Source: Micromonospora coriariae
Lineage (GTDB): Bacteria; Actinomycetota; Actinomycetes; Mycobacteriales; Micromonosporaceae
Assembly: GCF_900091455.1 (NCBI RefSeq)
Contig: NZ_LT607412.1
Coordinates: 3,038,001 to 3,102,000, forward strand
Direction: 5' to 3'
DNA: 64,000 bases
Shown here: piece after piece, positions 4,230 through 14,280 of the stretch
Numbering within the stretch: the stretch's first letter is position 1
How the letters are laid out: each line of letters opens with the position of its first letter
Program-made: the position numbers and the translations under genes
The notes under the pieces: model-generated
What the model was told of the DNA's origin: nothing
Seen by the model: the letters and a program-made list of their open reading frames with translations, nothing else
The model's database searches: none

Positions 4230-5105
4230 GTGACCGATCTGGTGCGGGCCCCGGGCCCGGTGGTGATGGGCGTCCTCAACGTCACGCCGGACTCCTTCTC
4301 CGACGGCGGACGGTACGCCGACCTGGGCTCAGCCGTCGGACACGGCGTCCGTCTGCGTGCCGCGGGGGCGCACCTGGTCGACGTCGGCGGTGAGTCGACC
4401 CGCCCGGGTGCCGAAAGGATCGACGCGGCGACCGAGGCCGACCGCGTGCTGCCGGTCATCCGCGAGCTGACCGCCGCCGGAGTGCCGGTCAGCATCGACA
4501 CCAGCCGCGCCCGGGTGGCCGAGGCGGCCCTGGGCGCGGGCGCGGTCGTCGTCAACGACGTCTCCGGCGGGCTGGCCGACCCGGACATGGCCCGGGTGGT
4601 CCGCGACGCCGGCTGCCCGTGGGTGCTGATGCACTGGCGTGGCCACTCACGGGAGATGCGCGAGCTGGCCAGCTACACCGACGTGGTGGCGGACGTCCGG
4701 GCCGAGCTGGCCCAGCGGATCGACGCGGCGCTGGCCGCCGGAGTGGCCGCCGACCGCATCGTCGTCGACCCCGGCCTCGGGTTCGCCAAGACGGCCGCGC
4801 ACAACTGGGAGTTGAGCGCCCGCCTGCCGGAGCTGCTCGACCTCGGGTACCCGCTGCTCTTCGGCGCCAGCCGCAAGTCCTACCTCGGCCGACTGCTCGC
4901 CGGCCCGGACGGGACGCCGCGACCCACGGCGCAGCGGGAGGCGGCCACCGTCGCCACCAGTGTGCTGGCCGTCGCGGCCGGCGCCTGGGGGGTACGCGTG
5001 CACGACGTCCAGGCCACCGCCGACGCGCTCGCCGTCTGGGTCGCCACCGGCAGCCCGCGTCTGGTCCCCGCCCGTGCCGGCGACGAGCGAGAGGTGCAGC
5101 GATGA
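4230..5105 (+). CDS. folP: dihydropteroate synthase
   Basis: FolP condenses p-aminobenzoate with 6-hydroxymethyl-dihydropterin pyrophosphate to dihydropteroate and is the sulfonamide target. The protein has 291 residues, normal for the family. Motifs include GVLNVTPDSFSDGG (residues 14-27, pyrophosphate loop), GGESTRPGA (about 53-61) and FGASRKS (about 211-217, pterin/phosphate site). Start GTG 4230 matches the conserved N-terminus and follows a TACCGT -10 by 6 nt; upstream in-frame ATGs at 4152 or earlier give non-conserved extensions. The stop overlaps folB by ATGA, so folP-folB-folK-DUF3180 is one operon. folE is not adjacent in this window. Confidence 0.97.
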   Translation: MTDLVRAPGPVVMGVLNVTPDSFSDGGRYADLGSAVGHGVRLRAAGAHLVDVGGESTRPGAERIDAATEADRVLPVIRELTAAGVPVSIDTSRARVAEAALGAGAVVVNDVSGGLADPDMARVVRDAGCPWVLMHWRGHSREMRELASYTDVVADVRAELAQRIDAALAAGVAADRIVVDPGLGFAKTAAHNWELSARLPELLDLGYPLLFGASRKSYLGRLLAGPDGTPRPTAQREAATVATSVLAVAAGAWGVRVHDVQATADALAVWVATGSPRLVPARAGDEREVQR

Positions 5106-5467
5106 CCGACCGGATCCAGCTGACCGGCCTGCGGGCCCGGGGCCGGCACGGGGTGTACGACTTCGAACGGGTCCAGGGGCAGGACTTCGTCGTCGACGCC
5201 GTGCTGGAACTGGACCTCGCCCCGGCCGCCGCCAGCGACGACGTCACCGCCACCGTCCACTACGGTGAGCTGGCCGAACAGCTGGTCGCGGTGGTGACCG
5301 GCGAGCCGGTCAACCTGATCGAGACCCTCGCCGACCGGCTGCTCACGGTCTGCCTGGCCGACGAGCGGGTCACCAGCGCCACCATCACCGTGCACAAGCC
5401 GGAGGCGCCGGTGCCGCACACGTTCACCGACGTGGCCGTCACCATGACCCGGGCGCGTGCCCGGTGA
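5102..5467 (+). CDS. folB: dihydroneopterin aldolase
   Basis: FolB cleaves 7,8-dihydroneopterin to 6-hydroxymethyl-7,8-dihydropterin and glycolaldehyde, the step before FolK. The 121 residues match the family length. Conserved segments are GLRARGRHGVYDFER near the N-terminus and VHKPEAPVPHTF near the C-terminus, the latter with the catalytic lysine region. The ATG overlaps the folP stop by 4 nt and the stop overlaps the folK GTG, so all three are translationally coupled. FolB works as an octamer in the cytoplasm. Confidence 0.96.
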   Translation: MTDRIQLTGLRARGRHGVYDFERVQGQDFVVDAVLELDLAPAAASDDVTATVHYGELAEQLVAVVTGEPVNLIETLADRLLTVCLADERVTSATITVHKPEAPVPHTFTDVAVTMTRARAR

Positions 5468-5991
5468 CCCGTGCGGTGCTCTCGCTCGGCAGCAACCTGG
5501 GCGACCGGCTGGGTCACCTGCGTACGGCCGTCGCCACGCTCGGCGACAGCGTGCTGGTGCTCTCCGGCGTGTACGAGACTCCACCGTGGGGCGACGCCGA
5601 TCAGCCCGCGTACCTCAACGCGGCGCTGCTGGCCCAGGACGACGCCGCCACCCCTCGCGACTGGCTGGAGCGGGCGCGGGCCGCGGAGCGCGCGGCCGGC
5701 CGGGCACGTGACCCGCAGCGGCGGTTCGGGCCGCGCACCCTCGACGTGGACGTGATCGCGGTCTGGGGCGACGACGACGAGCCGGTGCTCAGCGACGACC
5801 CCGAGCTGACCCTGCCGCACCCCCGGGCGCACCTGCGCGCCTTCGTGCTGCGACCGTGGATCGACATCCAGCCGTACGGGCGGCTGCCCGGTCACGGCTG
5901 GTTGACCGACCTGCTCACCGCCGGCCCGGCCGCCGACGACGCGCTGGATCTGCGCCCCCGGCCGGAACTGGCGTTAGAGTCGACGGCATGA
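5464..5991 (+). CDS. folK: 2-amino-4-hydroxy-6-hydroxymethyldihydropteridine pyrophosphokinase
   Basis: FolK transfers pyrophosphate from ATP to 6-hydroxymethyl-dihydropterin, making the FolP substrate. The 175 residues show LGSNLGDR near the N-terminus, the signature RRFGPRTLDVDVI with the two Mg-binding aspartates, and LTLPHPRAHLR. The GTG start overlaps the folB stop (GTGA). The stop TGA overlaps the ATG of an 8-codon mini-ORF that leads into the DUF3180 gene. A TAGAGT hexamer lies inside the last codons (5975-5980) and may fire an internal leaderless promoter. Confidence 0.96.
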   Translation: MTRAVLSLGSNLGDRLGHLRTAVATLGDSVLVLSGVYETPPWGDADQPAYLNAALLAQDDAATPRDWLERARAAERAAGRARDPQRRFGPRTLDVDVIAVWGDDDEPVLSDDPELTLPHPRAHLRAFVLRPWIDIQPYGRLPGHGWLTDLLTAGPAADDALDLRPRPELALESTA

Positions 5992-6014
5992 CCGAGCGGA
6001 GCCGGCCGGCATGA
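5988..6014 (+). CDS. 8-aa leaderless/coupled mini-ORF (MTERSRPA)
   Basis: ATG 5988 overlaps the folK stop (ATGA) and lies 7 nt after TAGAGT. The frame reads MTERSRPA and stops at 6014, where its TGA overlaps the ATG of the DUF3180 gene at 6011. The double ATGA arrangement would hand terminating ribosomes from folK, or leaderless ribosomes, to the next gene. This is inferred from layout only. Confidence 0.35.
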   Translation: MTERSRPA

Positions 6015-6550
6015 CGCAGGCGAAGTCCCCACCACCGGGCGGGCCGGGCCCGGACCGGTCACGGATGGGCCCCACCCGGATCTCCACCCTGGTCGTGGCC
6101 GCACTGGCAGCCGCGGCGGTGGCCTGGCTGCTGATCAGCACCCTCTACTACAGCGGCATCCCCCGGCTGCCCTGGCTGCCGGTGGTGACACTGGCCGCGC
6201 TCGCCGTGCTCGAGGCGTACGCCGCCGTCAACACCCGAGGACGGATCGAACGCAAGCCCGGCCGGGACCCGGTCAACCCGCTGCTGGTCGCCCGGTTCGT
6301 GGTGCTGGCCAAGGCGTCGGCGCTGGCCGCGGCCATTTTCGCCGGCTTCTACGCCGGGCTGGCCGGCTGGCTCTTCGTCGAGACCACGCGGGCCGCCACG
6401 GAGGATCGACCGGCCGCCGGGAGCGGTCTGCTCGCCTCGCTGGCGCTGGTGGGCGCCGCGCTCTGGCTTGAGCGCTCCTGCCGGGTGCCGGAGCGCCCGG
6501 ACGACGAGCGTGAGCCCGACCAGCGGGAGAGCCGCCCCGGCCAGCGTTGA
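6011..6550 (+). CDS. DUF3180 family membrane protein
   Basis: This 179-residue protein has four hydrophobic helices: about residues 28-48, 56-75, 98-122 and 137-152. It ends in a charged, hydrophilic tail. Its position directly after folK is the conserved actinobacterial position of DUF3180 proteins, whose function is unknown. Start ATG 6011 overlaps the mini-ORF stop and has no own Shine-Dalgarno. The gene ends the folate operon; tandem small hairpins follow at 6575-6607. Confidence 0.8.
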   Translation: MTQAKSPPPGGPGPDRSRMGPTRISTLVVAALAAAAVAWLLISTLYYSGIPRLPWLPVVTLAALAVLEAYAAVNTRGRIERKPGRDPVNPLLVARFVVLAKASALAAAIFAGFYAGLAGWLFVETTRAATEDRPAAGSGLLASLALVGAALWLERSCRVPERPDDEREPDQRESRPGQR

Positions 6551-6574
6551 GAGGCCCCCGGGGTCTCCCGACAG

Positions 6575-6607
6575 CCCCTGACAGGGGGTTACGCCCGGCT
6601 CCGGGCG
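6575..6607 (+). terminator. tandem short hairpins after folate operon
   Basis: Two perfect inverted repeats occur in tandem: CCCCTG-A-CAGGGG (6575-6587) and CGCCCGG-CT-CCGGGCG (6592-6607). No T tract follows. A TACGGT hexamer at 6612-6617 may be the -10 of the next gene, with an ~80-nt leader. Confidence 0.4.
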
Positions 6608-6700
6608 CAGGTACGGTGCCTGCGATCGGAGAGCAACGGCCGCCCCGGTCCGTCCGCGCGCACCGGACCGGGGGCGGCCGGCCAGTGGGGAGGCGGCGTC

Positions 6701-7915
6701 ATGGGGTACGAAGAAGCGGGCCGGGAAGGGTCGGTCGAGCCCTCGTCCGGGGTGCCCGCCGCCGTTCTGGAGAACGTCTTCGACGACCCCAGCCAGGGTG
6801 AGCCCGGTCGGGACCGGGTCGGCGTGCACCTGGGGTGGGAGGTCCTGCTGCTCGCCGGTGTCGCCACTCTGGGCTGGCTGCTCTGGCGGGTCGACTCGGA
6901 CGTGCTGCGCGGCGACAGCCTGCGCACCCTGCTGGTCGGCATGGTCGGGCTCGGGCTGCTCACCCTCGCGGCCGGGGTGAGCCTGCGTACCGCCGCACCG
7001 AACCTGGCCGTCGGGCCGGTAGCGGTCGCCGCCGCGCTGCACTACGCGGAGCAGGGTGACCAGGGCCTGGCGGCGTCCGTCGGCCCGGCGGTCGGGGTCG
7101 CCGCGCTGGCCGGACTGGCGCTGGCGCTGGCGGTGGTGGTGCTGCACGTGCCGGGCTGGGCGGCCAGTCTCGCCGGTGCCGCCGGCGTGGTGGTGTACAT
7201 CGAACGCCGGTCGGCGCCCGTGCTGGTGCAGGGCGACTACGACCCCGGGCGGAGCGCCGGCTACCTCTTCGCCGGGTTCGCCGCGGTGGCGGTCCTCGGC
7301 GGGCTGTTCGGCGCCATCCGGGCGATCCGCCGGCTGGTCGGCCGGTACCGGCCGGTCACCGATCCGGCCCGTCGCCGGGGAGTGGTGGCTGCCGTGGTCA
7401 CCGCGCTCGCACTGGTCGGCTCCACCGTGCTCGCCGCCCTCGCCGGCGTGCTGCTCGCCGCCAACGGCCCGGGGCCGGTCACGCCCGACCCCGGGCTGGA
7501 CTGGACAGTACTGGCGATCGGGGTGGCCCTGCTCGGCGGCACCAGCGCGTACGGCCGTCGGGGTGGGCTGTTCGGCACCCTGCTGGCGGTGGGCCTGGTC
7601 ACCGTCTTTCAGGCGTACGCGCTGGCGCGCGGCTGGACGTTCGACCACTGGACGGTCGGCGGCGTCGCGCTCGGTGTCGGACTGCTGGTCACCCGCCTGG
7701 TCGAGACGTTCGGACGGCCCCGGCCGGACAGCACCGACGCGCCCGAGCCGGTCGGCGACGGCACGATCAGCACGGGCTGGGCGATGCCCCGGTCGCAGCC
7801 GGTCGACAGCTGGCCCCCCACCCTGCCGACGCCGGCCGCGCCGCAACCGGTCGACCCGTGGCGGGATCCGCGCTGGGAGGACAGCCCGCGCCGGTGGGAC
7901 GCCGGTGAGCGGTGA
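6701..7915 (+). CDS. ABC transporter permease-like polytopic membrane protein
   Basis: A 404-residue protein with about ten hydrophobic helices between residues 45 and 345. A charged N-terminal leader (~40 residues) and a Pro/Asp-rich cytoplasmic tail flank them. The helix pattern and phrases such as YLFAGFAAVAVLGGLFGAI resemble the BPD_transp_2 (RbsC/branched-chain) permease fold. No ATPase or binding protein of that class is adjacent, so transport is uncertain. ATG 6701 has GGGGAGG 7 nt upstream. The next small gene starts independently. Confidence 0.6.
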   Translation: MGYEEAGREGSVEPSSGVPAAVLENVFDDPSQGEPGRDRVGVHLGWEVLLLAGVATLGWLLWRVDSDVLRGDSLRTLLVGMVGLGLLTLAAGVSLRTAAPNLAVGPVAVAAALHYAEQGDQGLAASVGPAVGVAALAGLALALAVVVLHVPGWAASLAGAAGVVVYIERRSAPVLVQGDYDPGRSAGYLFAGFAAVAVLGGLFGAIRAIRRLVGRYRPVTDPARRRGVVAAVVTALALVGSTVLAALAGVLLAANGPGPVTPDPGLDWTVLAIGVALLGGTSAYGRRGGLFGTLLAVGLVTVFQAYALARGWTFDHWTVGGVALGVGLLVTRLVETFGRPRPDSTDAPEPVGDGTISTGWAMPRSQPVDSWPPTLPTPAAPQPVDPWRDPRWEDSPRRWDAGER

Positions 7916-7968: not shown

Positions 7969-8277
7969 ATGACCGACACACCTGCCGCCACCCCCGGCGG
8001 ATCCTCGTTCGAGGAGCTCGACGCGCTGTCCACCGAGGAGCTGCGGGAGCGGGCGTTCGCCCGGGCCCGGGAGCACCGCGACGTGGGTTTCTACTGGTCG
8101 GTGCTGCGGCACCTGCCGAACGCGGACGAGGCGACGGTGCTGGACGGCGCGCCGAACTCGATCGGCCCGACCATCGACGAGGCGAACGCTCTGTGGCGGG
8201 AGCTGACCGGCCACGGTTACGAGGAGTCGGCGCCGCTGCTGCGGGCCGCCTTCATCGACTACCTGTTGAAGCACTGA
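7969..8277 (+). CDS. small conserved acidic protein, unknown function
   Basis: A 102-residue soluble acidic protein with helical segments (STEELRERAFARAREH) and a conserved-looking core (FYWSVLRHLPNADEA). I do not recognise a named domain. Start ATG 7969 is preferred over GTG 7912, which overlaps the previous stop. The reason is that TAGGCT (7956-7961) sits 7 nt before ATG 7969, the leaderless pattern seen throughout this window, and the intervening codons look non-coding. Confidence 0.7.
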   Translation: MTDTPAATPGGSSFEELDALSTEELRERAFARAREHRDVGFYWSVLRHLPNADEATVLDGAPNSIGPTIDEANALWRELTGHGYEESAPLLRAAFIDYLLKH

Positions 8278-8834
8278 GCCGGCCGGGGCGGCCCAGGTCC
8301 ACCCGGTCGGTCGGCTCGGGGTCTGGGCGGATCTTCGCGCGGTTCACCCGTACCGGTCCGATCAGCCGGTACGGGACGGCCGCCGGCACCGGCGCGCTCG
8401 CCGTGCTGCTGCTGGTCGGGATCTGCGGGAGCCCGGCGTACACCGGATGGGCCGGCGCGCAGGCCGACCCGGCGTCGGCGGGCGGTTACTACCTGCGTGT
8501 GCTCGCCTGGCCCGCGTGGCGGCTGGACGCGGACGGGCAGCCCGGCGGGTTGCTCGCCGCCGACCTGCGGGCCGTCCTGCTGGTGGTCCTCGCGGTGGCC
8601 CTGCTCTACCTGCTGCCCGCCGCCCAGGTGGCCCGGGTGCCCGGCCCGGTCAGCCAGTTCTTCTCCGGCTGGGCCGCGTACGTGCTGGCCGGTGGGCTCG
8701 CCGCCGTGCTGGCGGCGCCGTTCGGCCCGGACCCGTCGCTGCTCGGCGCGTTGCAGGACGCCAGCAGCGGCGCCGGCTACGGCTTCCTCTGCGGTTGGAT
8801 CATCGGCACCGCCAGCCTCGGCGGGCGGGCCTGA
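8193..8834 (+). CDS. four-helix membrane protein, start uncertain
   Basis: The coding part carries four hydrophobic helices: about residues 60-78, 123-141, 158-178 and 190-208 of the longest frame. There is no recognisable domain. The start is unclear. GTG 8193 overlaps the preceding gene by 85 nt in another frame and gives an Arg-rich, atypical N-terminus. The only other standard start, GTG 8403, lies inside the first helix. A non-canonical CTG at 8274, just at the previous stop, is possible. The frame is certain; the start is not. Confidence 0.5.
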   Translation: MAGADRPRLRGVGAAAAGRLHRLPVEALSRPGRPRSTRSVGSGSGRIFARFTRTGPISRYGTAAGTGALAVLLLVGICGSPAYTGWAGAQADPASAGGYYLRVLAWPAWRLDADGQPGGLLAADLRAVLLVVLAVALLYLLPAAQVARVPGPVSQFFSGWAAYVLAGGLAAVLAAPFGPDPSLLGALQDASSGAGYGFLCGWIIGTASLGGRA

Positions 8835-8858
8835 CCCCGACCGGTCGAGCCGTGCGGG

Positions 8859-9863
8859 TCAGCCCGTCACGCGGCCGAGGTCGAGCAGGCGCTGCCGGCT
8901 GAGCGCGCCCACGGGCCGGCCGCCGTCGGTCACCACGAGCCGGTCCCGTCCGGACGTGAGCAGTACCGCCAGCGCGTCGTACGCGGAGCCGTCCAGCGGC
9001 ACGGTGGGCAGGTCCGCCTCGGCGTCGCCGGGCACCGGCTCCAGCGCGTCCCGGTCGAGTCGGGTGACCGCGAGCCGGCGGATGCCCCGGTCGGCCCCGA
9101 CGAACTCGCGCACGAACGGCGTGGCGGGCGCGCCGAGCAGGGCGGCCGGCGTGTCGTACTGCTCCAGGTGCCCTCCCTGGGAGAGCACCGCGATCCGGTC
9201 GCCGAGCCGGACCGCCTCGTCGAGGTCGTGGGTGACCAGCAGGATCGTCTTGCGGACCTCGGCCTGGAGTCGGAGGAACTCCTCCTGGAGCCGGGCCCGG
9301 ACGATCGGGTCGACGGCGGAGAACGGCTCGTCCATCAGGAGCACCACCGGGTCGGCGGCGAGTGCGCGGGCCACCCCGACGCGCTGCCGCTGCCCACCCG
9401 ACAGCTCGTGCGGGTAGCGGCGGCCGAACTGGGCCGGGTCCAGCCCGACCAGGTCGAGCAGCTCGTCGACCCGGGCCCGGGTCTGGTCGCGGGACCAGCC
9501 GAGCAGCCCGGGCACGGTGGCCACGTTCGCCCGGACAGTCTGGTGTGGAAACAGCCCGACGTTCTGGATCACGTAGCCGATCCGGCGGCGCAGCCGCACC
9601 GGGTCGACGTCGGTGACGTCCTCGTCACCGAGCAGGATCCGCCCGGCGGTCGGCTCGATCAGCCGGTTGACCATGCGGAGCACCGTCGACTTGCCGCAGC
9701 CGGACGGGCCGATCAGCACCACCAGCTCGCCGGCCCGGACCTCCAGGGTGAGGTCCCGGACGGCCTCGGTGCCGTTCGGGTAGCGCTTCTGGATGGCCTG
9801 CAGGGAGATCGACGCCGCGCGAGGGGACTCGGCCCCGCCGGCAGCCTCCGGGGTAACGTCCAC
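8859..9863 (-). CDS. glycine betaine/choline-type ABC transporter ATPase
   Basis: The ATP-hydrolysing subunit of an OpuC/ProU-type osmolyte importer. Its 334 residues contain Walker A GPSGCGKST (52-60), a Q loop, the signature LSGGQRQR, Walker B LLMDEP and an H loop (VTHDLDEA). A short C-terminal CBS-like region (about 270-330) is typical of osmolyte ATPases. The GTG 9863 start has GGAAGGA 5 nt upstream. It is transcribed away from its two permeases and binding protein, with only 2 bp between the two start codons, so each 5' region lies within the other gene's promoter. Substrate (betaine, choline or another quaternary amine) is inferred from family. Confidence 0.9.
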   Translation of the reverse strand: MDVTPEAAGGAESPRAASISLQAIQKRYPNGTEAVRDLTLEVRAGELVVLIGPSGCGKSTVLRMVNRLIEPTAGRILLGDEDVTDVDPVRLRRRIGYVIQNVGLFPHQTVRANVATVPGLLGWSRDQTRARVDELLDLVGLDPAQFGRRYPHELSGGQRQRVGVARALAADPVVLLMDEPFSAVDPIVRARLQEEFLRLQAEVRKTILLVTHDLDEAVRLGDRIAVLSQGGHLEQYDTPAALLGAPATPFVREFVGADRGIRRLAVTRLDRDALEPVPGDAEADLPTVPLDGSAYDALAVLLTSGRDRLVVTDGGRPVGALSRQRLLDLGRVTG

Positions 9864-9865
9864 GT

Positions 9866-10552
9866 ATGTCCTTCCGCCTGAGCTACCGGGCCGACCCGGG
9901 TAACCCCTGGTTCTCCTGGCAGTACGTGCGGGACAACTCTGACACGATCGTCGCGGCGGTGGGTGAACACGCCTCCCTCACCGGGCGCGCGGTGCTGATC
10001 GCGGCGCTGATCGCCCTGCCGTTGTCCGTGCTCGCGTACTGGTTCCGCCCGCTGGCCGGGCCGATCCTCGGCATCACCGGCGTGATCTACACCATTCCGT
10101 CGCTGGCGCTGTTCGCGTTCATCGCGCCCTACCTGGGCACCGGCGCCACCACCGTGCTGGTCGGCCTGGTCCTGTACGCGCTGCTGCTGATCGTCCGGAA
10201 CGTGGTGGCGGGGCTCAACCAGGTGCCGCCCGAGGTCCGCGAGGCCGCCGAGGGCATGGGCTACGGCCGGTGGGGCCGGCTGTTCCGGATCGACCTGCCG
10301 CTGGCGATCCCGGGCATCATGACCGGGCTGCGGCTGGCCACCGTGTCGACGGTCGCGCTGGTCACCGTGGGGGTGCTGGTCGGGCACGGCGGGCTCGGGC
10401 AGCTGATCTTCGCGGGCTTCCAGAACAACCTCTACAAGGCTGAGATCATGACCGGGACTGTGCTCAGCGTGGCGCTCGCGGTGCTGCTGGACCTGCTGCT
10501 GGTCCTCGTCGGCCGGCTGGTCACCCCCTGGTCCGCCCGGGGCGTGCGGTGA
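9866..10552 (+). CDS. betaine/choline-type ABC permease 1
   Basis: A 228-residue permease with about six helices and the EAA loop that docks the ATPase (EVREAAEGMGYGRWGRLFRI). It matches OpuCB/OpuCD-type permeases. ATG 9866 follows TAACGT (9854-9859) by 6 nt, so the transcript is probably leaderless. That promoter lies within the first codons of the divergent ATPase gene. The stop overlaps the second permease start (GTGA). Confidence 0.9.
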   Translation: MSFRLSYRADPGNPWFSWQYVRDNSDTIVAAVGEHASLTGRAVLIAALIALPLSVLAYWFRPLAGPILGITGVIYTIPSLALFAFIAPYLGTGATTVLVGLVLYALLLIVRNVVAGLNQVPPEVREAAEGMGYGRWGRLFRIDLPLAIPGIMTGLRLATVSTVALVTVGVLVGHGGLGQLIFAGFQNNLYKAEIMTGTVLSVALAVLLDLLLVLVGRLVTPWSARGVR

Positions 10553-11286
10553 GTGCCGCGGCGAGCCCGGTGTCCCAGGCGGTGATGTGGCTCAACGACC
10601 CGCTGAACTGGACCAATCCCGGCGGCATCCTGGACCGGCTCGGCGAGCATCTGGAGATCTCCGCCGCGGCGGTGGCGCTCGGCTGCCTGGTGGCCTGGCC
10701 GCTCGGGCTCTGGCTGGGGCACACCGGGCGCGGTGGTGGCCTGGTGGTGCTGGTGTCCAACGCCACACTGGCCATCCCGACCCTCGCGCTGCTGACCATC
10801 CTGCCGTTGACGTTCCTCGGCTTCGGCCGCACGCCGGTGGTGGTGGCGCTGGCCGTCTTCGCCGTTCCACCGCTGCTGGCGAACGCGTACACCGGCGTAC
10901 GCCAGGCGGACCTGGAGGCGCTCGACGCGGCCCGCGGGATGGGCCTGTCCGGCGGGCAGGTGCTGCGGCGGGTGGAGCTGCCGCTCGCGATTCCCTACCT
11001 CGCCGCCGGGTTCCGGACCGCCGCCGTGCAGGTCATCGCCACCGCCGCGCTGGCCTCGTTCGTCAACGGCGGCGGCCTCGGTGAGATCATCCGTACCGGC
11101 TTCGGCCTGAGCATCGCGGTCGGCGGGGGCCAGATCCTGGCCGGCGGTGTGCTGGTCGCCGGGCTCGCGTTGCTGGCCGAGCTGGTCCTGGGCGGCGTCG
11201 AACGGCTGGTCACCCCCCGTCCGCTGCGGCGCGACCGGCAACGCGCGGGACGACCCCGCCCCGCCGACGCCACCGGCCGCGCCTGA
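10549..11286 (+). CDS. betaine/choline-type ABC permease 2
   Basis: A 245-residue permease of the same family as its upstream neighbour, which suggests a heterodimeric membrane domain as in OpuCB/OpuCD. The EAA loop is visible (LEALDAARGMGLSGGQVLRR) and about five to six helices are predicted by hydrophobicity. GTG 10549 overlaps the previous stop by 4 nt. The binding-protein gene follows after 226 bp and may have its own promoter. Confidence 0.9.
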   Translation: MSAAASPVSQAVMWLNDPLNWTNPGGILDRLGEHLEISAAAVALGCLVAWPLGLWLGHTGRGGGLVVLVSNATLAIPTLALLTILPLTFLGFGRTPVVVALAVFAVPPLLANAYTGVRQADLEALDAARGMGLSGGQVLRRVELPLAIPYLAAGFRTAAVQVIATAALASFVNGGGLGEIIRTGFGLSIAVGGGQILAGGVLVAGLALLAELVLGGVERLVTPRPLRRDRQRAGRPRPADATGRA

Positions 11287-11512
11287 TCTGACGCCATTTC
11301 GTCCCCGGGACGACCCGTTCGGGCGACCGGTGGACGAGCCGGCGATCGGCAGCGAGGCGTCCGTGACGATGCGGTGACGAACTCCACCTCAGGTTGTCGG
11401 TCGGTCCCGGAGGATGTTGGGTGGACATTCACGGGCGGCCGACAGTCAGGATCGCCCGTCGGACACGCGGCCGGCCCGGGACGGGTCGCGCCGGGACACG
11501 GAAGGCGGGCAC

Positions 11513-12517
11513 ATGCGCGCACGTACACGTCTGGCGATCGGCGCGGTCGGCGCAGTCGCCGCGGCAGGGCTTCTGACCGGGTGCGGTGACGCCGGTTCGT
11601 CCGGCACCGACGCGCCCCAGCAGAGCGCCTCCGGGGCCGGGTGCGCCCCGATCGCCGGGCAGCAGCTCATCGCGTTGCAGGACGACAAGAAGCTCCAGAA
11701 CTCCGACAACGTCATCCCGGCGGTCAACAGCAAGGCGGCCAACCCGCAGTTGATCGCCGCGCTGGACAAGGTCTCCGCCGTGCTGGACACGCCGAAGCTG
11801 ATCCAGCTCAACAAGGCCGTCAACGACGACCGCAAGACCCCCAAGGTGGCGGCCGAGGAGTTCGCCTCCGCCAACAACGTCACCGCGGGCATCGCCAAGG
11901 GTCCGGGTGGCGAGATCGTGGTGGGAGCCGGCAACTTCGCCGAGAGCCAGACCCTGGGCGAGCTGTACCGGATCGTGCTCACCGCCGCCGGCTACCAGGT
12001 CAAGGTGCAGCAGATCGGCAACCGGGAGCTCTACGAGCCGGCGCTGGAGAAGGGCGAGGTGCAGGTCGTCCCGGAGTACGCGGCGACCATGGCCGAGTTC
12101 CTCAACACCAAGGCCAACGGCCCCAACGCCCAGCCGGTCTCCTCGCCCGACATCAACAACACCGTGAGCGCGCTGAAGGCCGAAGGCGACAAGGTGGGCA
12201 TCACCTTCGGCGCCCCGGCCGCCGCCCAGGACCAGAACGCCTTCGCGGTCACCCAGGCCTTCGCCGACAAGTACGGCGTGCGGACCCTGTCCGAGCTGGC
12301 CGCGAAGTGCTCGGGCAACGCGACAGTGCTGGGTGGTCCGCCGGAGTGCCAGCAGCGTCCGTTCTGCAAGCCGGGCCTGGAGAAGACGTACGGGCTGTCG
12401 GTGGGCTCGTTCTCCTCCCTGGACCAGGGCGGGCCGCTGACCAAGAACGGGCTGCGCACCGGCGCCATCAGCGCGGGCCTGATCTTCTCGTCGGACGGTG
12501 CCTTCGCCACCAGCTGA
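11513..12517 (+). CDS. circularly permuted osmolyte ABC substrate-binding lipoprotein
   Basis: This would capture the osmolyte outside the membrane and deliver it to the adjacent permeases. The 334 residues start with a lipoprotein signal peptide, lipobox LLTGC with Cys24. Residues ~44-122 resemble the normal C-terminal end of OpuAC/ProX-type domains (ALQDDKKLQNSDNVIPAV, then two helices). The normal first strand and binding loop (IVVGAGNFAESQTLGELY) only begins at ~135. The protein ends at SSDGAFATS, where a normal family member would run into the DDK segment. It therefore looks like a natural circular permutation. ATG 11513 has GGAAGG 7 nt upstream; the longer frame from 11414 is non-conserved. 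Confidence 0.88.
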   Translation: MRARTRLAIGAVGAVAAAGLLTGCGDAGSSGTDAPQQSASGAGCAPIAGQQLIALQDDKKLQNSDNVIPAVNSKAANPQLIAALDKVSAVLDTPKLIQLNKAVNDDRKTPKVAAEEFASANNVTAGIAKGPGGEIVVGAGNFAESQTLGELYRIVLTAAGYQVKVQQIGNRELYEPALEKGEVQVVPEYAATMAEFLNTKANGPNAQPVSSPDINNTVSALKAEGDKVGITFGAPAAAQDQNAFAVTQAFADKYGVRTLSELAAKCSGNATVLGGPPECQQRPFCKPGLEKTYGLSVGSFSSLDQGGPLTKNGLRTGAISAGLIFSSDGAFATS

Positions 12518-12539
12518 GCCACCCCGTGACGTGCTGACG

Positions 12540-12570
12540 ACGCCCCCGCCCCACCCCGGAGCGGGGGCGT
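12540..12570 (+). terminator. hairpin terminator after ABC operon
   Basis: A perfect 10-bp stem (ACGCCCCCGC / GCGGGGGCGT) with an 11-nt loop sits 22 nt after the binding-protein stop. There is no T tract, which is common in actinobacteria. Confidence 0.7.
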
Positions 12571-12627
12571 CCGCGCGTCCCGGGACCCCGTTCCCTCAGC
12601 TGGGGATTCTCGGTAGGCTGCACAGCC

Positions 12628-14280
12628 ATGCCAGCCCCGGTCACCCCCGATGCCCGGCGTCAACCGCCGCTGCTCACCCTGCTCTTCTGGGCCGGCGTGG
12701 GCCTCGCCCCGGTGGCGGCGCTGATCCTGCTGGTCGCCGACGGCAACGGCCCGCTGCGCTTCGCGGCGGTGCTCGCCATCCTGGCGGTGGTGCTGATCGG
12801 CCTGTCCATCGCGCTGCGGCCCGACGGTGAGGACGCGTCGGCGCGGGCCGACGAGCTGCTGGACGAGATCGAGGAACTCCGCCGGGAGCTGCGCGCCGAG
12901 ATCGTCGCCGCGGCGCAGCGCGGTAACCAGGCGCTCGACCAGGCACAGCGGGCCCAGGAGGGTGTCGTCGCCGTCCGCCGCCGACTCGACGCCAGCGGTG
13001 CCGCGCTCGCCGGTGCCGCCCCGGCCGCCGATCCGGCGGGTGCCGGCCGGGCGCGGGTGCCGGTCGGCGAGCCGGTGGACGATGCTCCGGTGGCCCGCAG
13101 TCGCGTGTCGGTGCCCGGTGGTGCCCCGGCGGGTCGGGGCCGGGTGTCGGCCCCGGAGGACGCCGGTGCCCGGTGGGGTCGCCCCGAGCGCGTGGACGAC
13201 GACGGGCCGGCGTACCACCGGGAGGCCCTGGACGCCGACGCCGAGCCGGCCGTCGGCCGCTACGGTGCCGAGCCGCCGGCCGCCGGACTCTACGGCGGGG
13301 AACGACAGGCCGCCGCCGGGTACGGATCGGTGCCCCGCCCTCGCGAGCACGACCGCCCGGAGTCGGCGCACCGCCCGGTCGGTGTGGTGCGGCACACCGA
13401 GACCGTGCACGTCACCACCCGGCACACAGTCGTGGACGGCGGTCCGGCCGAGCCGGGTGGGCGGTACGGCGGCGGGTACGCCGGCCAGTGGACCCCGCCG
13501 GCGCAGGAGTGGACCCGGGACGGGGGCGCGGAGGAGCGTTCCCGGGGCGCGCAGGCCGGGACCCGGGGTGAGCCCGGCTGGACGGCCCGCCGCGACGAGC
13601 CGGAGTGGACCGATCCGCGCGACGCGTACCCCGAGCCCGACGAGCCCGGCCGGGGGGCCCGGCCGCAGCCGGATTCGTGGGCCGGCGCCGACGACCGCGA
13701 CTGGTCGGAGGAGCGGGAACCCGACCGGGCATCCGCCGGAGCGCAGCCCGGCCCGGCTCTGCGGGCGGACGACACCGGTGAGTACTGGTCGCAGCTGCGG
13801 GCCGGTGACCGGTGGGCCGCCGTGCGGGACGACGAGAACGGCCGTGAGTTGCGGGTCGGGGAGCGCCGGGCCGAGGTGCACGCGGATGCCACGGGCGCCG
13901 AGTACCGGGTGGCCGACCGCTGGGCCTCCGTCCGGCACGAGGAGCCCCGCCGGCACGAGGAGCCCCGCCGGCACGAGGAGCCCCGCCGCCATGAGGACGC
14001 GCACCGGTACGACGAGCGCGAGTCGTACCGCCGGGACGAACCGGCGCGCTGGCAGGATCGCGACGGCGGTTGGCGGGACGAGCCGGCGGACCGGCCGGCG
14101 TTGCCGGTGGGCGGCGTGCCGGTGCCGGACGAGTGGCGTCCACCCCGCCAGCGGAGCCACCAGGCGGAGGCCGTACCGGAGCGGGCCGGCCGGCGCCGGG
14201 TCGACGAGCGGTACGGCTACCCGCCGCAGGACGACGTGCCACGCGCCGGGGGCGCGCCGGCCACCGACCGCTGGCGCTGA
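12628..14280 (+). CDS. membrane-anchored, coiled-coil, disordered charged protein
   Basis: A 550-residue protein of unknown function. Two close hydrophobic helices (about residues 14-36 and 44-62) precede a coiled-coil stretch rich in Glu/Arg/Leu (~68-112). The rest is long, low-complexity and charged, rich in Arg, Glu, Pro, Gly and Asp. A perfect 18-bp DNA repeat gives three RHEEPR units (residues ~436-453). ATG 12628 lies 8 nt after TAGGCT, so it is probably leaderless. The antisense frame is also open because of GC bias and is a shadow. A membrane scaffold is possible but unproven. Confidence 0.75.
   Translation: MPAPVTPDARRQPPLLTLLFWAGVGLAPVAALILLVADGNGPLRFAAVLAILAVVLIGLSIALRPDGEDASARADELLDEIEELRRELRAEIVAAAQRGNQALDQAQRAQEGVVAVRRRLDASGAALAGAAPAADPAGAGRARVPVGEPVDDAPVARSRVSVPGGAPAGRGRVSAPEDAGARWGRPERVDDDGPAYHREALDADAEPAVGRYGAEPPAAGLYGGERQAAAGYGSVPRPREHDRPESAHRPVGVVRHTETVHVTTRHTVVDGGPAEPGGRYGGGYAGQWTPPAQEWTRDGGAEERSRGAQAGTRGEPGWTARRDEPEWTDPRDAYPEPDEPGRGARPQPDSWAGADDRDWSEEREPDRASAGAQPGPALRADDTGEYWSQLRAGDRWAAVRDDENGRELRVGERRAEVHADATGAEYRVADRWASVRHEEPRRHEEPRRHEEPRRHEDAHRYDERESYRRDEPARWQDRDGGWRDEPADRPALPVGGVPVPDEWRPPRQRSHQAEAVPERAGRRRVDERYGYPPQDDVPRAGGAPATDRWR
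13933..13986 (+). repeat. three perfect 18-bp tandem repeats (RHEEPR)
   Basis: The unit CGGCACGAGGAGCCCCGC occurs three times head to tail in frame, and a degenerate fourth follows. It is an in-frame coding minisatellite in the disordered tail, able to vary in copy number by slippage. Confidence 0.9.

Follow-up and report, generated by a model that had tools for sequence, protein, structure and literature searches.

Does a binding protein whose parts follow one another in an unusual order still make an intact substrate-binding fold, and how did such an order arise? The question is raised by a gene of Micromonospora coriariae at positions 11513..12517 of the window (the whole 64,000-nucleotide stretch of DNA that was analysed), which encodes a 334-residue lipoprotein next to the genes of an ATP-binding cassette (ABC) importer. 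An earlier note had read the product as a circularly permuted osmolyte-binding protein. Calling N, M and C the three segments of a substrate-binding protein (SBP) in their usual order, N-M-C, we found that the circular permutation is real and that the order is C-N-M; the note had also placed the gene and its segments correctly.

11513..12517 (+): permuted substrate-binding lipoprotein, 334 residues, order C-N-M, Micromonospora coriariae
11513..11584 (+): signal peptide ending at the lipobox Cys24 (LLTGC), from the sequence; Cys24 is invariant in 55 aligned homologues
11642..11878 (+): segment C, residues 44-122, in unpermuted proteins the C-terminal part of lobe I (Pfam OpuAC 186-255, E 1.3e-9)
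11642..11644 (+): codon of Cys44, at the edge of the cut hinge strand that is now N-terminal
11879..11911 (+): linker, residues 123-133, between the former C- and N-termini (from the alignment; the best rotation starts here)
11912..12307 (+): segment N, residues 134-265: the opening part of lobe I, then hinge 1 and the beginning of lobe II
12308..12310 (+): codon of Cys266 (lobe II), the proposed partner of Cys44
12314..12514 (+): segment M, residues 268-334: the remainder of lobe II up to FSSDGAFATS, with Cys279 and Cys285 in it

Evidence for the C-N-M order

The evidence for the permutation is solid. The whole protein is a member of the Pfam OpuAC family (PF04069; 128.9 bits, cut-off 21.2), with the order of the profile broken, positions 186-255 coming ahead of 2-184. 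Residues 44-122 by themselves match 186-255 of the 257 positions, while the start of the profile (2-184) is found at residues 134-332 and, for residues 132-334 taken alone, with an E-value of 1.8e-27 (97.0 bits). In the alignment with ProX of Archaeoglobus fulgidus (AfProX, 1sw1), residues 134-297 likewise fall on chain positions 7-164 and residues 53-117 on 202-267. We then used a profile of 266 positions built from six unpermuted proteins. In native order, residues 36-334 score 187.7 bits and cover positions 2-190; when every rotation of this stretch was scanned, the best one, starting at residue 133 (119-135 lie within 2 bits), reached 248.9 bits over positions 2-263, that is, rotation restores a near-full-length match. 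Placing segment 44-122 after 135-334 gives 261.2 bits, compared with 188.7 without the segment and with a mean of 189.7 (maximum 199.6) for 200 shuffles of it. As controls, the unpermuted L057 scores best in its native order (322.4 bits), and P0121, a protein of the third order, M-C-N, rises from 182.7 to 334.9 bits on rotation.

AlphaFold2 predicts a single confident fold for the protein. In Foldseek comparisons of this model, the match to Bacillus OpuAC is a single collinear stretch limited to residues 39..265, the C-N part; ProX, OpuBC and EgtU match the N-M part. Note that the query-normalised TM-scores are at most 0.45 among the 50 matches listed, as expected, since a sequential aligner cannot use a rotated chain in full; no Protein Data Bank chain spanning the whole C-N-M order stands among these 50. 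The collinear gene is present in all 36 other genomes of the genus in one sample and in 43/44 in a second (hand count, leaving out 4 match-less genomes), the exception being G142, 100% complete and with no SBP match. This conservation across genomes excludes a frameshift or an assembly artefact. The homology search returned Micromonospora homologues at 98% and 91% identity, and the source genome is one contig of 6.93 Mb.

Distribution and origin of the three orders

Hidden Markov models of the segments N, M and C were applied to 360 proteins (the best 120 of each of three homology searches) and on the fetched loci, from which 68 locus rows were obtained (67 of 70 loci; L014, L015 and L050 gave no full call). 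These loci were chosen by similarity, and the counts are therefore not frequencies. All three rotations of one ring are found in Actinomycetota: C-N-M in the window protein, in 240/240 proteins listed from the window and L012 searches and in 33 locus rows; M-C-N in 120/120 proteins listed from the L030 search and in 5 locus rows; and N-M-C in 30 locus rows. Each segment is present exactly once, at 15 bits or more, in each of the 69 called rows, whatever the order. C-N-M was also called in 80/80 later named loci, a set capped at 80 of 557 relatives, which were found with C-N-M-derived patterns. The C-N-M groups are Micromonosporaceae, Geodermatophilaceae, Promicromonosporaceae, Cellulomonas and others, the named loci including Micromonospora, Catellatospora, Dactylosporangium, Actinoplanes, Phytohabitans, Geodermatophilus, Blastococcus, Modestobacter, Motilibacter, Promicromonospora, Isoptericola, Cellulomonas, Georgenia, Demequina, Oerskovia and metagenome-assembled genomes (MAGs) of Frankiales; one MAG among the 80 is titled Spirochaetaceae. 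In evenly drawn samples, collinear C-N-M matches were counted by hand in 103/298 genomes of the order and 17/394 of the class, and full-length M-C-N matches were found in 4/394 class genomes. The M-C-N group (Jatrophihabitans, Patulibacter, Marmoricola, Nocardioides) has the order of OpuAC; it includes P0121 (L030 4723-5721, Jatrophihabitans telluris) and P0122-P0240, with the lipobox at a different new N-terminus.

The lipoprotein gene stands last in the layout ATPase< PermA> PermB> SBP>:

8859..9863 (-): divergent ABC ATPase, ProV-like (TIGR01186 304.7 bits, below the cut-off of 326.6)
9866..10552 (+): first ABC permease, PermA
10549..11286 (+): second ABC permease, PermB

A tree of 79 rows and 266 columns was built on the re-ordered segments, with N-M-C, the order of ProX, OpuBC and EgtU, taken as ancestral. 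The M-C-N rows form one clade (support 100/99), and joining them with C-N-M in a single clade is rejected (approximately unbiased (AU) test, p 7.6e-5); M-C-N arose by a separate permutation in a different clade. The N-M-C sisters of C-N-M (L057-L059 and others) share its divergent operon, whereas the M-C-N proteins and their N-M-C neighbours have a collinear ATPase> operon. Tandem duplication is a known route to circular permutation, and we infer that it may have been the route here. Two tandem C-N-M copies stand in G193, G291, G111 and G143, which indicates that tandem duplication does happen at this locus.

The cut hinge and the cysteine pair

In PMC9732360, EgtUC is described with domain D1 at 232-331 and 445-503, domain D2 at 341-432, and a hinge of two strands. 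Mapped on the 334-residue protein, hinge 1 falls at ~232-242 and hinge 2 at ~52-66. Just ahead of hinge 2 lies the new N-terminus, and the last residues stand at the point where that strand would exit lobe II, which would leave one peptide link between the lobes. Cys44 marks the free end of this hinge strand, and Cys266 belongs to lobe II; together with Cys279 and Cys285 they are the four invariant extracytoplasmic cysteines of the aligned homologues besides lipobox Cys24. The Cys44/Cys266 pair occurs in 240/240 listed proteins, 30/34 C-N-M rows and 75/80 named loci, and both residues are absent from the others, four rows (L034-L037) and five loci (L071-L073, L078, L083). They are thus strictly both present or both absent, never single, over 354 rows (328 distinct sequences), which suggests that a disulfide may replace the severed link. 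Cys44 is found in none of 30 N-M-C and none of 125 M-C-N rows; a cysteine was counted at the place of Cys266 in one N-M-C row, L029.

From these sequences and the predicted structure, the protein is very probably the SBP of a ProX/OpuC-type ABC importer whose gene was circularly permuted in an actinobacterial ancestor, from N-M-C to C-N-M, with the cut at hinge 2. The linker of ~11 residues connects the old termini, and the new ones would be found where the second hinge strand between the lobes meets lobe II, with the secretion and lipidation signal placed ahead of the new N-terminus. Each lobe would thereby become one continuous stretch, with a single peptide strand crossing between them, and in most members a putative Cys44-Cys266 disulfide probably ties the free end of the severed strand back to lobe II. 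As the fold, the pocket motifs and the ATPase and permeases are as in the unpermuted sisters, the protein has most likely kept its function as a two-lobe clamp that feeds the same kind of importer.

Alternative explanations

Several observations weigh against this explanation. The AfProX match of the moved segment is weak by itself (2.7 bits) and becomes convincing only with closer relatives; the ratio of nonsynonymous to synonymous substitution rates reaches 0.77 in segment C for the L010 pair and, for the L042 pair, 0.91 in the linker of 11 residues; the cysteine pair is probably a single gain (or loss), so that its counts are not independent; and one C-N-M protein, L056 (1202-3442, from a 63%-complete genome), adjoins an N-M-C protein in the tree and has a different operon, with divergent permeases and the SBP behind the ATPase. 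It could be supposed that there was no permutation at all, residues 134-334 being by themselves a whole, if shorter, binding protein to which 44-122 had been added as a domain, since residues 132-334 alone score well above the Pfam cut-off. We give this next to no credence and reject it on profile coverage, the rotation test, the OpuAC alignment and the segment counts: the match of 134-334 ends at position 184 of 257 (or 190 of 266) and 44-122 supplies the missing 186-255, C-N fits OpuAC as a single stretch, and no segment is ever doubled. The earlier note had itself named a similar case, an extra domain at 44-122 beside a complete fold at 135-334; AlphaFold2 gives one fold, and the profile match of 134-334 is incomplete. 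It is also very improbable that C-N-M was derived from an existing OpuAC-type M-C-N protein: C and N are adjacent in both orders, but the proteins near to it in sequence and operon have the order N-M-C (G421, 55% identity over 124-332; G652, 54% over 121-332), and the separate M-C-N clade disfavours such an origin.

The number of C-N-M events is less firmly set. L056 falls beside the N-M-C protein L061 (4012-5097) with a bootstrap of 97, so that the tree requires two changes of C-N-M, even after removal of L061 and six long N-M-C rows; together with the operon of L056, this position means that C-N-M may have arisen twice or that L061 reverted once to N-M-C. We consider more than one event unlikely, as L056 and L061 are both long branches, a single origin is not rejected (AU p 0.204), C-N-M without L056 forms one clade (Shimodaira-Hasegawa-like approximate likelihood ratio test, 92), and L056 carries the same Cys44/Cys266 pair. 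The pairing of L056 and L061 could reflect a further permutation, a reversal or long-branch attraction. The same tree bears on the cysteines, whose pattern reflects a single evolutionary event or at most two, rather than hundreds. Within the main C-N-M clade, the cysteine-free group branches as sister to all other members, which suggests that the permutation came first and the staple later; L056, outside the main clade and yet with the pair, would on the contrary imply that this group lost it. The pair, probably a single gain, might form no disulfide, serving in metal binding or being a lineage marker. This we find rather unlikely: the pair is both or neither in every C-N-M row examined, and four cysteines are invariant outside the lipobox, of which Cys279 and Cys285 also occur in 15/30 N-M-C rows without Cys44 and Cys266.

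Binding pocket and ligand

The pocket was compared between 34 C-N-M rows and the 13 N-M-C sister rows of the tree. Tyr189, Glu278 and Arg282 are invariant in both sets; Thr192 is found in 32/34 and 12/13, Asn242 in 34/34 and 12/13, and Asp65 in 32/34 and 13/13, respectively. This agreement points to a permutation without visible change of specificity. Note that Glu278 and Arg282 are not diagnostic, being present in nearly all other rows too. The AfProX aromatic cage, which we take to comprise positions 63, 111, 190 and 214, is incomplete: Tyr189 is kept, Asn242 and Asp65 stand in place of tyrosines, and position 190 was taken as Phe325 in an uncertain alignment. With two of the four tyrosines of the quaternary-ammonium cage replaced by Asp and Asn, glycine betaine is a doubtful ligand, and the osmolyte binding put forward in the earlier note is unsupported. 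The protein is not a member of the OsmF equivalog NF049931 (61.3 bits, cut-off 400). Compared through AfProX with the binding residues given in PMC9732360, the positions of EgtUC Thr296, Arg379 and Glu375 are kept as Thr192, Arg282 and Glu278, whereas those of Lys242, Gly244, Asn339, Tyr341 and Tyr443 differ, and the EgtU residue set is not complete.

Relation to known binding proteins

The protein shares its Pfam family and, over N-M, its predicted two-lobe fold with the cluster F-III SBPs ProX, OpuBC, OpuCC and EgtUC. It differs from them by its order, theirs being N-M-C, and by Asp65 and Asn242 instead of cage tyrosines; EgtUC is part of a permease fusion, and this is a separate lipoprotein. 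OpuAC of Bacillus subtilis (2b4l) is M-C-N. Permuted binding proteins are already known: Tp0684 (MglB-2) of Treponema pallidum is a lipid-anchored SBP, circularly permuted in nature, that still binds its ligand, and its authors point to tethering as a reason that may lie behind the permutation (PMC4990184). By its sequence and predicted structure, the 334-residue protein is likewise a natural re-ordering of an intact SBP fold. Tp0684 has a type I sugar fold to which the permutation adds a fourth cross-over, whereas in the 334-residue protein one cross-over would be removed. Our literature search, incomplete in coverage, returned no recognisable description of the C-N-M rotation; as far as the searches show, the second permutation (M-C-N) and the cysteine pair are new observations.

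Three chain orders with the same predicted fold, two of them from separate events in Actinomycetota, offer a natural experiment on the number of hinge cross-overs, addressing closing, folding and lipid tethering, and a cysteine pair that is kept or missing as a whole hints at a way in which evolution may mend a cut hinge. Such natural orders should help biosensor design, where permutation is made by hand. The Pfam-based "glycine betaine" annotation masks both the topology and the altered pocket.

A structured RNA leader

11450..11513 (+): structured RNA leader, with P1 over the Shine-Dalgarno region, a GACAC/GACACRGAA internal loop and a P2 hairpin

Directly ahead of the ATG, the leader has the layout CCCGYC-RGACACGCG-hairpin-CGGGACACRGAAGGCGGG-ATG. 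With a strict pattern it was found before 78/114 C-N-M, 9/30 N-M-C and 0/5 M-C-N genes (near-identical loci counted). Among the 80 named C-N-M loci it precedes 50, the remaining 30 including Promicromonospora, Cellulomonas, Georgenia, Demequina, two Catellatospora and Motilibacter (short flank). At L038, two tandem C-N-M genes (4470-5759 and 5662-6729) come with two leader copies. In 59 distinct leaders of 70 (11 near-copies left out), chosen by a pattern fixing GACACGCG and GGGACAC, 86.4% of cells pair, against 39-49% in slid controls, and the pair at columns 21-45 is seen as GC, CG, UA and UG. RNAalifold unaided predicts the P2 side only, not P1. In 30 leaders outside model building (31 held-out rows less L154, which repeats L077), 91.4% pair against 30-50% in slid controls, the alignment being fitted to the model. 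A second genomic place of the pattern GACACGCG..GGGACAC was taken as chance; the RNA model did not find it. Rfam gave no gathering-score match in window positions 8000-13000, and two chance-level matches only, up to E 10, for 11430-11530.

The RNA model, R1, finds 63 places in 61/296 class genomes, 54 of them directly upstream of an SBP match. The other 9 comprise four before N-M-C SBP genes (L188-L191), two before egtB (L183, L184), one at a contig end, one weak place without a nearby SBP and one in G508; L203 is also listed among the leader-bearing places. The egtB genes reach 544.6 and, in the copy truncated at a contig end, 397 bits (cut-off 360), and the gene following one of them is egtD (328 bits). 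Both genomes belong to one family, in which 2/12 genomes have an egtB copy of the leader; in Micromonospora, egtB is located elsewhere, without the element. P1 over the Shine-Dalgarno region of SBP genes makes a translational switch plausible, and the leader, conserved and covarying, is a candidate translational riboswitch absent from Rfam. The separate GGAGG downstream of the element before both egtB genes and the weak P1 in L188-L192 argue against one uniform mechanism. The leader shared with egtB in these two related genomes is a lead towards a relation with ergothioneine and, only indirectly, towards ergothioneine as a possible ligand. That all would combine, a new ProX/OpuAC rotation with a disulfide for its severed hinge, translationally controlled by an undescribed, egtBD-shared RNA class sensing ergothioneine or a precursor, in an ergothioneine-family importer, seems to us a tentative and rather improbable proposal.

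Downstream of the lipoprotein gene, the next long open reading frame (12628-14280, +) has a hydrophobic N-terminal part followed by a low-complexity part rich in Arg, Asp and Glu.
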